From: Agrococcus lahaulensis DSM 17612
GTDB taxonomy: Bacteria; Actinomycetota; Actinomycetes; Actinomycetales; Microbacteriaceae
Assembly (NCBI RefSeq): GCF_000425105.1
Contig: NZ_AULD01000006.1
Location: 1 to 64,000 of the forward strand
Direction of reading: 5' to 3'
DNA: 64,000 nt
Shown: piece after piece, positions 163 through 57,700 of the stretch
Numbering within the stretch: position 1 is the stretch's first letter
How the letters are laid out: each line of letters begins with the position of its first letter
The notes under the pieces: model-generated
Seen by the model: only the letters and a program-made list of their open reading frames with translations
Databases searched by the model: none
Told to the model about the DNA's origin: nothing
Made by a program: the position numbers and the translations under genes

Positions 163-1572
163 TCACTCGAGGTAGTCGCGCAGCTGCTGCGAGCGCGACG
201 GGTGCCGCAGCTTCGCCATCGTCTTCGACTCGATCTGGCGGATGCGCTCGCGCGTCACGCCGAAGGTGTCGCCGATCTGGTCGAGCGTCTTCGGCATGCC
301 GTCGCCGAGGCCGAAGCGCATGCGGATGACCCCCGCCTCGCGCTCCGAGAGGGAGTCGAGGAGCGACTCGAGCTGGCGCTGGAGCATCGTGAAGCCCACC
401 GCGTCGGCCGGCACGACCGCCTCGGTGTCCTCGATGAGGTCGCCGAACTCGCTGTCGCCGTCCTCGCCCAGCGGCGTGTGCAGCGAGATGGGCTCGCGGC
501 CGTACTTCTGCACCTCGATGACCTTCTCGGGGGTCATGTCGAGCTCGCGCGCGAGCTCCTCGGGGCTCGGCTCGCGACCGAGGTCCTGCAGCATCTGCCG
601 CTGCACGCGGGCGAGCTTGTTGATGACCTCGACCATGTGCACGGGGATGCGGATCGTGCGGGCCTGGTCTGCCATCGCGCGCGTGATCGCCTGGCGGATC
701 CACCACGTCGCGTAGGTCGAGAACTTGAAGCCCTTCGTGTAGTCGAACTTCTCGACCGCACGGATGAGGCCCAGGTTGCCCTCCTGGATGAGGTCGAGGA
801 ACTGCATGCCTCGGCCCGTGTAGCGCTTCGCGAGCGAGACCACGAGGCGCAGGTTCGCGCCCAGCAGGTGGCTCTTCGCGCGCTGCCCGTCGCGGGCGAT
901 GCGCGTGAGGTCGCGCTTGAGCTGCCAGTCGAGGTCGTCGCCCTCGAGCGAGAGCTTCTCCTCGGCGAACAGGCCCGCCTCGATGCGCATCGCGAGGTCG
1001 ACCTCCTGCTCGGCGTTGAGCAGCGCGACCTTGCCGATCTGCTTGAGGTAGTCCTTGACCGGGTCGGCCGTCGCGCCCGTGATCTGGGTGGCGGCAGGCT
1101 CGTCGTCGTCGCCCGAGAGGCGCAGGGCGCCGGTCGGGAGCTTCTCGACGTGGACCTCCTCCTCGTCCTCCTCGGGCGCCTCGGTCGCGGTCTCCTCGGC
1201 CTCCATCACCTCGGCGACGGGGTCGGCGGCCTTGCGGCGGCCGCCGCGCGCGGCGGGCTTCGCCGGGCCGGTCGACGGCGAGGCGGCCTTCTTCGCGGCA
1301 GCGGTCTTCGCGGCAGCGGTCTTGGCGGCGGCGGTCTTGGCGGCGGTCGCCTTGGCGGGCGCCTTCGCGGCGGTCGACTTGGCAGCCGTGGTCTTCGCGG
1401 TCGACTTGGCGGCAGGCGCCTTCGCCGCCGTCGTCTTCGCGGTCGCCGACTTCGCGGCAGTGGTCTTCGCGGCGGTGGCCTTTGGCGCTGCGGCCGTCGT
1501 GGCGCTCTGCTCAGCGTCGGCGGCCGCCTTCATCGTTCGGCTCCGCGGGCTCGTGGTCTTGTCAGCTGGCAT
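163..1572 (-). CDS. sigA: Primary RNA polymerase sigma factor SigA/RpoD
   Basis: Housekeeping sigma factor of 469 aa that binds core RNA polymerase and recognises -10/-35 promoters. Residues about 25-105 are a low-complexity Ala/Lys/Thr tract built of AAK, TAAK and TAAAK units, followed by an acidic linker. Region 1.2 starts near residue 170 ([11 protein letters not shown]). Region 2 holds [34 protein letters not shown] and [13 protein letters not shown] (core binding and -10 recognition). Region 4 ends with [20 protein letters not shown] (-35 recognition). The ATG is supported by GGAGGA upstream. Lys/Ala-rich N-termini are usual in actinobacterial primary sigma factors. The gene is single, with an IS just beyond its 3' end. 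Confidence 0.97.
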
Positions 1573-19431: not shown

Positions 19432-19835
19432 TCGAGCCGTTCGTCGAGCAGCGGCCGCAGCACGCCCGTTCGTCGAGTAGCGGCCGCAGGCCGCGTATCG
19501 AGACGTGAGCGCTTCGATCTCGATACGCGGTCGGCTGCGCCGACCGCTACTCGATCAACGGAAGGGGCCGCAGCACCCGCTCGTCGAGTAGCGGCCGCCC
19601 CACCCGCTCGTCGAGTAGCGGCCGCAGGCCCCGTATCGAGACGTGAGCGCTCTGATCTCGATACGCGGTCGGCTGCGCCGACCGCTGCTCGATCAACGGG
19701 AGGGGCCCAGCACCGCCGCTCGTCGAGCAGCGGCCGCAGGCCGCGTCTCGAGACGTGAGCGCTCTGATCTCGATACGCGGTCGGCTGCGCCGACCGCTAC
19801 TCGATCAACGGGGGGCGCCGACTGCTGCTCGATCA
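19429..19835. repeat. Palindromic repeat array, three 90-bp units plus half-units
   Basis: This 400-bp convergent intergenic stretch holds no gene. It contains three 90-bp units (19471-19560, 19609-19698, 19721-19810). Each starts CGTCGAGTAGCGGCCGCAGG and ends GACCGCTACTCGATCAACG, with an inner pair GTATCGAGAC / GATCTCGATAC, so each unit is an imperfect palindrome that can fold into a large cruciform or hairpin. Single half-units lie at about 19440, 19582 and 19822. The same element occurs at 34693-35013, 57616-57700 and 59717-59815. The units differ by only a few bases from each other. Confidence 0.9.
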
Positions 19836-20030
19836 ACGGGACGAGGAGGCGCTGCCCCAGTCGTCCTCGGCCGCCTCCTCGGCGGCCCACTTCCGCGAGC
19901 GCTCCTTGATGATCTCGGGCGCGCGCGCCGCCTCCTCGCGAGTGGCGAAGGGCCCCGCGCGGTCGTAGCCCGGGGAGACCATGCCCTCCTCGACGACGCC
20001 GGTCTCCAGGTTGTACCAGTACTCGGTCAT
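19833..20030 (-). CDS. Small conserved protein (SPOR-like, 65 aa)
   Basis: Short protein opening [17 protein letters not shown], with [19 protein letters not shown] and an acidic/basic tail. It belongs to a small actinobacterial family annotated as SPOR-domain-like, often next to map as here (divergent, 64 bp apart). Function is unknown. The ATG is complementary to 20028-20030, with AGGAGG 5-6 nt upstream (complement of about 20037-20042). The stop TGA belongs to the palindromic repeat (CGTTGATCGAG), so the last residue codons abut the array. Confidence 0.75.
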
Positions 20031-33971: not shown

Positions 33972-34001
33972 GAGGCCCCCGCTGCTCGCAACGGGGGCCT
34001 C
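33972..34001. terminator. Bidirectional terminator between fabF and DUF3145 gene
   Basis: Perfect 10-bp stem GAGGCCCCCG (33972-33981) with 33992-34001 and a 10-nt loop. It lies 15 bp after fabF and 16 bp after the convergent DUF3145 gene, so it can serve both strands. Confidence 0.8.
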
Positions 34002-34016
34002 ATCGTGCTGGGCGCG

Positions 34017-34544
34017 TCAGCCGACGCGGTGCAGCCACGCGACGGGCGATGCGTCGGAGGCGTGGCGGTAGCCCTCGAGGTCGCGGTCCCACGGGCCGGC
34101 CATCGCCTCGTCGAGCTCGGCGAGGAGCGCGCGCGAGTCGGGGCCGGCGGCCTCGATCGCGCTGCGGATGCGGTCCTCCGGCACAAGCAGGGAACCGGCG
34201 GCGTCGATGCGGCGCGCGGCGATGCCGAGCTGCGGCGTGTGCATCCAGCGCATGCCGTCGCTGCCCGGCGTGGGGTCCTCCGTCACCTCGAAGCGCACGT
34301 CGCGCCAGCCGGCGAGGGCGCTCGCGATCGACGCGCCGGTGCCGACCGGGCCCGTCCAGTGCACCTCGGTGCGCTCGGCGCCGGGCTCGGCGGGCTGCGG
34401 CTGCCACACGAAGCGCAGCGCGTCGCCCACGGCCTGGCCGATCGCCCACTCGAGGTGGGTGCGCATGGCGCGCTGGGACGCGTGGATCCAGACGACCCCC
34501 GCGGTGGTCGCGGGACGTCGCCTGAGCATGTTCGCAGCAGTCAT
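34017..34544 (-). CDS. DUF3145 family protein
   Basis: Protein of 175 aa of the actinobacterial DUF3145 family: it has GVVWIHASQRAMRTHLEWAI at the start, then LRFVWQPQPAEPG and MRWMHTPQLGI in the middle. Function is unknown. Its position immediately after the FAS II operon, in convergent orientation, is common in actinobacteria and is the main contextual hint. The ATG is preceded by GGGAGA. The upstream region is the second repeat array. Confidence 0.88.
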   Translation of the reverse strand: MTAANMLRRRPATTAGVVWIHASQRAMRTHLEWAIGQAVGDALRFVWQPQPAEPGAERTEVHWTGPVGTGASIASALAGWRDVRFEVTEDPTPGSDGMRWMHTPQLGIAARRIDAAGSLLVPEDRIRSAIEAAGPDSRALLAELDEAMAGPWDRDLEGYRHASDASPVAWLHRVG

Positions 34545-34618
34545 CGTCTCTCCCTCGTTCGATGCGACTTCCCCATCGGTCGAACGAGCCCGAGTCGATG
34601 CCTCGAGTGTGGCACACG

Positions 34619-35013
34619 CGGGCTGCGAACTCCAAGCGTGTCATTCGTCGCGGATCGTCGAGCACCGCGCGTGGCGTCACCCATCGACCGCTCGTCGAGC
34701 ACCGCGCGAAGCGTCGCCCAGCCACCCGTTCGTCGAGCACCGCGCGAAGCGTCGCCCAGCCACCCGTTCGTCGAGTAGCGCGCGAAGCGTCGCCCAGCCA
34801 CCCGTTCGTCGAGTAGCTCGCGAAGCGCGCGTATCGAGACGGGCGCGATCGGTCTCGATACGCCGCCTGCGGCGGCTACTCGACCGACGAGGGGGCGGCG
34901 GCTACTCGACCGACGAGGGGGCGGCGGCTACTCGACCACCGAGGGTGCGGCGGCTACTCGACCACCGAGGGTGCGGCGGCTACTCGACCGACGGATGGTG
35001 CCGGCGGCGGCTA
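34619..35013. repeat. Asymmetric palindromic repeat array (38-bp and 26-bp periods)
   Basis: No gene here. A core palindrome (34807-34889) is the same type as at 19471. To its left, the left arm has expanded as three 38-bp tandem copies starting at 34693, 34731 and 34769 (start CGTCGAGCACCGCGCGAAGC). To its right, the right arm has expanded as five 26-bp copies at 34869, 34895, 34921, 34947 and 34973 (GCGGCGGCTACTCGACCGAC) plus a partial copy to 35013. Left copies differ from each other by few bases. The last copy contains the stop codon of the DUF1684 gene. A degenerate stretch continues to about 34619. Confidence 0.9.
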
Positions 35014-35847
35014 CTCGGCCGGCGCGGACTCCGCGAAGATCGGCCGCTGCTCGCCCGCCTCGATCGGGAAGGCGAGGCGGTTGCCCGCCGGCGGCAGCGG
35101 GCAGTTGAACTGGTCGCTCATCGCGCACGGCGGCACGATCGCGCGGTTGAAGTCGAGCTCGACGGTGCCGTCCTGCCGCGGCTTGACGAACAGGAAGCGG
35201 CCGACGTCGTAGGTCGCCTGCCCCGTCGTCGCGTCGGCGAAGACGATCTGCAGGCTGTCGCCGTCCGGGAGCGCGACGAGCTCGACCTCGGCGCCCTCGT
35301 GCTCGAAGCGGATCGTGCCGGGCGAGACGCCCTGCCGCATCGAGCCGCCCTGCGACTTGCCGTACTCGAAGGCGACGCCGCCCTCGACGGGCTCGAACGT
35401 GCCCTGCTTGACCCACGCGGGGTCGTAGTCGTAGGTCGAGATACCGTCGAAGCCGCGCTCCTCGGCCGCCTCGGCATCCCACACGCGCAGCGCGAACCGG
35501 CCGTGGAAGTCGGGACCGATCACGAACGCGGTCCGGCGGTCGTCGAAGCGCACGGAGCTCGGCGTCATCGAGTCGTGGCTGTAGACGATCGCCGCCCCGT
35601 CGACGAGCTGGCCGTCCACGACGATCTCGGCCGACGCATCCGCCGTCACCTGCAGCCCGTCACCCGCGGGCGAGGGCGCCCACGTGCCCGGCACGCCCTC
35701 GATCTCGGTCGACTCCGCGACCCACGCGGTGGCGACGAGGGCGACGGCGCCCTGCGGGCCGCGCACGCTCGCGTCGCGCTTGCGGCGGAAGGCGAGGTGC
35801 GACTCGGGCACGGTGGTGTCGGGGCTCGTGACGGCGGCGTCGGTCAT
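35011..35847 (-). CDS. DUF1684 family protein
   Basis: Soluble protein of 278 aa. It carries the DUF1684 landmarks: YDYDPAWVKQGTFEPVEG, then FFADAT-like VFADATTGQATYDVGRFLF and the final FNRAIVPPCAMSDQFNCPLP with two Cys and NRLAFPIEAGE. Function unknown. The ATG follows TAGGCT (complement of 35854-35859) by 6 nt, suggesting leaderless translation. The stop codon TAG (complement of 35011-35013) is part of the repeat sequence CGAGTAGC. Confidence 0.88.
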   Translation of the reverse strand: MTDAAVTSPDTTVPESHLAFRRKRDASVRGPQGAVALVATAWVAESTEIEGVPGTWAPSPAGDGLQVTADASAEIVVDGQLVDGAAIVYSHDSMTPSSVRFDDRRTAFVIGPDFHGRFALRVWDAEAAEERGFDGISTYDYDPAWVKQGTFEPVEGGVAFEYGKSQGGSMRQGVSPGTIRFEHEGAEVELVALPDGDSLQIVFADATTGQATYDVGRFLFVKPRQDGTVELDFNRAIVPPCAMSDQFNCPLPPAGNRLAFPIEAGEQRPIFAESAPAE

Positions 35848-57615: not shown

Positions 57616-57700
57616 CCGTTCGTCGAGCAGGGTGGAGGGCCGCTTCAAGAGGCGCGCGCCGATCTCGGTACGCGGCCTTCCGCCGCTACTCGATCATCGG
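57616..57700. repeat. Degenerate copy of the palindromic repeat
   Basis: CGTTCGTCGAGCAG (left arm) and GATCTCGGTACGCGG...CCGCTACTCGATCATCG (right arm) flank a diverged centre. It sits between vapB and the hypothetical gene at 57744-58712; up to 57743 nothing else is seen. Confidence 0.75.

Follow-up and report, generated by a model that had tools for sequence, protein, structure and literature searches.

How does a palindrome in a short intergenic spacer come to have both of its arms repeated in tandem, each with a period of its own? The question is raised by the spacer between the DUF1684 and DUF3145 genes of Agrococcus lahaulensis DSM 17612, which lies in the stretch of 64,000 nucleotides analysed here (the window), on contig C2 of a genome of 2,677,837 bases in 13 contigs (G000). 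The spacer measures 469 bp in this genome and 106 bp in a related one, G015, from which the whole array is absent, and spacer lengths together with the alignment place an insertion, relative to G015, of about 363 bp at 34648-35010, immediately past the stop codon of DUF1684 and ahead of the DUF3145 upstream region. Both genes are on the minus strand (DUF1684, 35011-35847, PF07920, E = 7.8e-39; DUF3145, 34017-34544, PF11343, E = 2e-56), the stop codon of the former touching the array and the latter lying downstream of it. DUF3145 was found in 23 of 24 Agrococcus genomes and both genes were present on 21 of the 24 loci returned; in a named collection all eight loci with DUF3145 relatives were from Agrococcus, at 82-98% identity.

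Structure of the array

The core of the array consists of two complete REPs facing one another. The left REP (34807-34841, minus strand) has the terminal class CG and carries GTAG at 34813-34816, and the right REP (34851-34885, plus strand) has the class GG and carries CTAC at 34876-34879, in both cases on the outer side. The right REP is followed by an outer tail (34886-34894, plus strand) for which the tail composition of 115 halves gives the family consensus ARCGGRGG. The arms of the core palindrome run from 34798 to 34840 and from 34852 to 34894, with 11 nt between them. An earlier note, made from the letters of the window, had placed a core palindrome around 34807-34889, 38-bp units beginning at 34693, 34731 and 34769 on its left and five 26-bp units beginning at 34869, 34895, 34921, 34947 and 34973 on its right, and this layout proved accurate in position, period and copy number. 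Repeat analysis delimits the left outer units, all on the minus strand, at 34693-34730, 34731-34768 and 34769-34806, the last of them also recovered by half-element parsing, and adds a fourth, diverged unit at 34655-34692; TRF reported 34655-34827 with a period of 38 and 92% matches. To the right, on the plus strand, the units outside the REP and its tail occupy 34895-34920, 34921-34946, 34947-34972 and 34973-34998, and TRF reported 34869-35021 with a period of 26 and 90% matches. Right units 3, 4 and 5 each show three differences from unit 1, in keeping with the two or three bases by which the last right units had been said to depart from the first. A degenerate sixth right unit (35000-35020, plus strand) overlaps the DUF1684 stop codon, and its CTACTCGG is part of the 3' end of that gene and is found in G015 too. 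On the left and right alike it is the outermost unit that has diverged most.

When folded as DNA the two-sided core does better than its shuffles (z -3.0). Taken alone, the right REP gives a bulged hairpin on folding, and this copy of the left REP folds no better than shuffled sequence. The TA of the right REP tag is paired in the plus-strand fold and the tag is free in the minus-strand fold. Rfam covariance models gave no matches at E up to 1 within 34000-35200.

A REP-like family in the genome

The array belongs to a family. The 306-bp repeated stretch had 98 matches in its own 2.68-Mb genome, a count that includes the stretch itself and both orientations of palindromic places and for which 40 of 249 first-look candidates were scored, and TCTCGATAC occurs 101 times in the genome against a single occurrence of the reversed motif used as a control. 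These matches and the 101-to-1 excess exclude chance as the origin of the array. From the stretches around motif sites we parsed 120 half-elements, and their consensus can be written as [GC][GA]TCTCGATACG, a variable stem-loop, CTACTCGA[CT][CG] and the tail ARCGGRGG, which is conserved on the 3' side of the outer motif. Motifs usually run in the order outer-minus (repeated), inner-minus, inner-plus and outer-plus (repeated), with two unlike REPs placed face to face and GTAG, which reads CTAC on the opposite strand, at the outer side of each. Many single-sided copies were also present in the parsed stretches.

Conservation of these motifs is not in itself evidence, because the copies were chosen by motif, and it is the covariation of ends and arms that carries weight. 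In every one of the 120 halves the opening dinucleotide is complementary to the closing one, where 43 such cases would be expected by chance, and the ends fall into four terminal classes (GG 52, CG 47, GA 15 and CA 6). Between the ends lie 66 distinct stem-loops, whose mean uninterrupted arm, with G-T pairs allowed, is 5.66 bp compared with 1.02 bp after shuffling, and arms of 5-6 bp around a 3-nt loop are found in 82 of the 120 halves; many copies lie in tandem arrays and are thus non-independent. The two REPs of an element tend to differ. Different terminal classes are combined in 38 of the 43 two-sided elements and identical hairpins in none, and when tandem copies are removed same-class pairs number 4 of 32 against 11.2 expected (p = 0.003). 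The sections of PMC3733652 that deal with dimers describe a preference for heterodimers in REPs and suggest protection from enzymatic degradation, naming SbcCD; by analogy, such protection may apply to the Agrococcus pairs also.

Crude gene calls allowed 62 of the 67 clusters of copies to be classed by context, 23 lying between convergent genes, 23 between genes in the same direction, four between divergent genes and 12 over a called gene. Among background spacers from these stretches 23 were convergent, 72 same-direction and 28 divergent. This placement agrees with the 3'-end preference of REPs reported in the text of PMC3733652 on their location.

Other copies illustrate the range of forms. 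A second array in the window (19437-19851) is made of three two-sided elements with periods of 112-138 bp and has extra outer units of 27-29 bp besides; a motif scan of the corresponding G015 site recognised no REP. Single REPs of the GA class stand at 57663 and 59717 of the window, the second with extra outer motifs 29 and 36 bp apart. Elsewhere in the genome, at C1:66908-67582, six two-sided elements follow one another in a row, three of the five steps measuring 121 bp, with no REP recognised by alignment and motif scan at the equivalent G015 site. Window positions 1282-1482 contain tandem repeats rich in G+C, about 15 to 42 bp long, which are possibly a coding repeat.

Origin of the extra outer units

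Extra outer units were found at 40 of the 120 halves, 70 in all and mostly with periods of 23-39 bp, and the asymmetry for which the earlier note proposed to check other copies in the genome is therefore a recurrent one. A further inner motif on the same strand lies within 90 nt after three of the 120 halves; the lack of an inner motif in the extra units is partly a matter of construction, because an extra unit was defined as lacking it. At least one side is extended in 25 of the 43 two-sided elements and both sides in six of the 43, as judged by eye. The two periods are unequal in all six, which bears out the idea of separate tandem growth on each side, and just three of the six cases are solid, because the other three each have a side whose extra unit agrees with the local hairpin over no more than 3 nt.

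The extra units are mostly local in origin. Their hairpin arms match those of their own REP over 7.9 nt and those of other REPs over 3.1 nt, the highest of 300 draws being 4.2, and 64 of the 70 keep the local terminal dinucleotide where 25 would be expected. Under a looser spacing limit, which gives 73 candidate units, the start of the duplication falls within the 3' arm or loop for 38 units, within the 5' arm for 21 and one or two bases beyond for three, with no useful hairpin match by which to place it in the remaining 11. The counts include doubtful units such as the outermost one of the window array, inside the DUF1684 gene, and one at C4:175603, whose stem-loop differs from that of its neighbour and is not accounted for by local duplication.

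The outer motif retains its TCGA core in 63 of the 70 extra units. An exact CTAC is intact in 102 of the 120 complete REPs and in 40 of the 70 extra units (p = 5e-5), and this lower frequency indicates that the extra units decay. Figures for conservation of the units are upper bounds, because detection allowed up to two mismatches.

Orthologous sites in related Agrococcus

Flanks from G015 or from Agrococcus pavilionensis RW1 (G010) could be paired with 24 of the 67 clusters; 19 of these were aligned and all 24 scanned for motifs, with the calls made by eye. A REP is present in both species at eight sites, none is present in the relative at 14 and an outer fragment only at one (site 51), while site 38 has no REP but chance matches to the outer motif in both species. 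In the eight shared sites (34, 36, 37, 40, 43, 55, 57 and 60) the relative's copy is degenerate at 36, 37 and 43, and the degenerate copy at site 37 is of another terminal class. No constant target-site duplication was seen by eye in the 19 alignments.

Extra units differ between the species at seven of the eight sites with a REP in both, a comparison that is unrooted with respect to gain and loss. The clearest differences are at C1:243639, which has no extra units in G000 and about three left units of 35 bp with the local stem-loop in G010, and at C1:731515, where four right units of 30 bp in G000 correspond to none in G015, which has one REP only. At C1:754776 the right arm of G010 has about four 36-bp steps and the matching G000 array has one. 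At C1:302107 G015 has a left REP alone, where G000 shows a right REP, two additional units on the left and one more outer motif. Two extra units are present in G000 and none in G015 at C1:148340, and two in G000 at C1:197869, where G015 has a degenerate REP of another class; at C1:708218 G000 has none and G015 has one outer motif 51 nt further out. The one site without a difference is C1:156939, where neither species has extra units.

As judged by eye, the DUF1684-DUF3145 spacer itself is occupied in other relatives by REPs of a variant kind, with GGAG in place of GTAG (G016, G004, G021 and G006), and G002 has a close form. In G016 four GGAG-type REPs stand head to tail in this spacer, which could reflect repeated use of one site. 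In A. pavilionensis contig C42 starts 126 bp upstream of DUF3145.

Distribution across Microbacteriaceae and the search for a mobiliser

The GTAG form was found in 65 of 249 sampled Microbacteriaceae genomes, representing 31 of 85 genera, in 1 to 1123 copies, and the reversed control gave two matches in total. Within one genus G068 has 1123 copies and G241 none. The second variant, TCTCGTGACG..CTCCTCGA, with GGAG for GTAG, is present in 15 of the 24 Agrococcus genomes; G000 has no copies of it, G004 has 166, and G006, G007, G008 and G013 have from 108 to 136. In stretches of the single-contig genome G004, picked for listed clustered sites, the tag varies jointly with the inner motif, 27 pairs being GATACG-CTAC and 19 GTGACG-CTCC with none crossed (p = 2e-13). 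In G000 there are 83 GATACG-CTAC and three GATACG-CTCC pairs.

The same G004 stretches held 41 halves, nine of them with extra units, in arrays of REPs with mixed dimers, and complete REPs are also repeated head to tail in this genome. Six stretches of G068, from another genus, gave 13 halves, three with extra units, and the corresponding numbers were two of seven in G015, none of three in G150 and none of two in G048. Terminal complementarity extends to these genomes as well, without being perfect in all of them (G004 40 of 41, G068 11 of 13, G015 six of seven, G150 three of three and G048 two of two).

The search for a gene that might mobilise the family gave negative results. The PF01797 (Y1_Tnp) profile had no match in sets of one, 24 and 21 genomes, which overlap and cover part of the 65 repeat-bearing genomes, and the NF047646 (REP_Tyr_transpos) profile had none in 12 genomes overlapping with those sets, the E. 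coli control being positive for both. No REPtron-like locus came from a Pfam scan of 20 genes selected from those flanking clustered copies. Matches were obtained for 19 of them, to metabolic, cell-wall, transport, regulatory and similar families and none to a transposase; the other gene was without a match. Gene loss is suspected in PMC6006769, in its treatment of such cases, for genomes that have REPs but no RAYT gene. Here the loss of RAYTs would have to be wide, which leaves room for an unknown mobiliser. Among the best-ranked papers of the open PMC library, we recognised no named actinobacterial REP family.

Explanations for the array

The reading that we favour, and to which we would give a probability of roughly two in three, is that the family is REP/BIME (REPIN)-like and lacks a detectable RAYT, and that slippage or template switching at the hairpin lengthens its ends in place. 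According to this explanation an element would have been inserted in the DUF1684-DUF3145 spacer, rather than lost from G015, as is suggested by the relatives with a short spacer, and its outer ends would then have been lengthened in place, as their local identity suggests. The lengthening would consist of tandem duplication, separately on each side, of a segment that begins inside the hairpin and takes in the outer motif and the tail. Since hairpin arm and tail length are particular to a side, each side would also acquire its own period. Replication slippage or template switching at the hairpin is the likely mechanism; slippage or recombination at the palindrome, as put forward in the earlier note, stands as the best inference and is inferred rather than observed. 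Against slippage, the outer breakpoints are often close to the conserved tail, which a blind process need not respect. The C1 halves with extra units are equal on the two strands (11 and 11), and there is accordingly no pointer to lagging-strand synthesis. The array probably has no function that is required, and a side effect on RNA 3' ends is a possible candidate. More speculatively, and in our view somewhat doubtfully, the REP-like element of Microbacteriaceae could spread to more than 1000 copies without a RAYT through an unrecognised enzyme or replication process that reads the hairpin from its outer end and deposits partial copies at that end, so that the outer units would be its footprint.

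The extra units might instead be abortive transposition products, made by an unrecognised transposase-like enzyme that nicks the hairpin and pastes truncated REP ends beside a REP already in place. The coincidence of unit ends with the hairpin and the element tail would suit such an enzyme, and the terminal complementarity of 120 of 120 halves and the linkage of inner and outer motifs resemble recognition by one enzyme. Motif counts that run from 0 to 105 between species of one genus and the foreign stem-loop at C4:175603 point the same way. However, the extra units resemble, for the most part, the hairpin next to them rather than those elsewhere, no Y1_Tnp or REP_Tyr_transpos match was obtained in the genomes tested and no transposase lies among the 20 nearby genes scanned, and we regard this explanation as unlikely. 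It is a good deal less probable that the outer units would be retained as repeated sites to which a host protein, gyrase or a nucleoid protein, binds, with copy number under selection. Retention of the TCGA core in most extra units could be read in this way, and E. coli REPs are gyrase targets according to the background given in PMC3733652, but the loss of CTAC speaks for decay of the units, and the conservation figures are upper bounds.

The position of the array at the 3' end of DUF1684, like that of the 23 convergent and 23 same-direction clusters among the 62, would also be expected of an ordinary terminator acting in both directions, or of a structure at mRNA 3' ends, that was repeated by chance. 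We consider this very improbable: no terminator-like site with a T tract was found within 34400-35100, which supports the earlier note in its doubt about a simple terminator, the spacer is short and free of the array in G015 and other relatives, and partial tandem units are not needed for termination. An assembly artefact in a repeat-rich draft seems hardly credible. The assembly is in 13 contigs, and runs of N, probably assembly gaps, lie beside copies at C3:372419, C4:125620, C4:146962 and C5:20331, but the units carry private substitutions and locus-specific sequence, and related arrays occupy the same spacer in other Agrococcus. Such arrays follow the same grammar in G004, which is a single contig, and misassembly is therefore unlikely as a general explanation.

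The family has some wider meaning for the study of these repeats. RAYTs are the standing candidate for REP spread, a role that is itself unproven, and a large REP-like family with no detectable RAYT but with partial end copies that vary in number between close species allows end growth and spread to be separated and tested. It is also a caution that the length of arrays in such spacers can vary among close relatives.

Comparison with known systems

The Agrococcus family is short, present in many copies and mainly intergenic, with GTAG beside the stem, and in these respects it resembles the GTAG-tagged REP superfamily, which the descriptions in Di Nocera 2013 (PMC3733652) portray as high-copy palindromes of 20-40 bp, one end of which carries GTAG. 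Further likenesses in that account are dimers joined head to head with GTAG on the outside, a preference for heterodimers in most families, location in convergent and same-direction spacers and clusters reiterated with flanking DNA. Unlike those repeats the Agrococcus family has no detected RAYT, has four complementary terminal classes and shows tandem growth of partial REPs. The main text of the same paper names Proteobacteria, Cyanobacteria, Chloroflexi and PVC for GTAG repeats, and the word 'Actinobacteria' is absent from it. CGTC-tagged REPs, as treated there, are likewise without a dedicated transposase and mostly head-to-head dimers, and some Agrococcus ends read CGTC, but their stems are of 8-9 bp beginning with A-T and have loops of 4-5 nt, in contrast to 5-6 bp and a 3-nt loop in most Agrococcus halves. 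The table of arms and loops does not fit the CGTC-tagged group, and the Agrococcus ends are GG, CG, GA or CA.

With REPINs, in the outline of Bertels and Rainey 2011 (PMC3116915), the family shares an inverted pair of REPs as the apparent unit, seen here in 43 two-sided elements, and ordered tandem arrays of REPs or REPINs. REPINs, however, accompany RAYT genes, and the arrays described in that outline repeat whole REPs or REPINs and not the outer part of one REP. The E. coli BIME and TnpA-REP system, in the features given by Corneloup 2021 (PMC8266576), is similar in having GTAG followed by a bulged hairpin in pairs that are tandemly repeated, and differs in that no HuH transposase was detected in Agrococcus and in that the ends here are complementary and vary by class. 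Tandem growth of partial REPs that starts in the hairpin is absent from the parts of these REP descriptions that were compared. An associated RAYT gene (TnpA-REP, Y1 HuH) was not found in the profile-searched genomes, and for this reason the Agrococcus element is not a full member of the RAYT-linked families; by its structure and arrangement it is REP/BIME-like.
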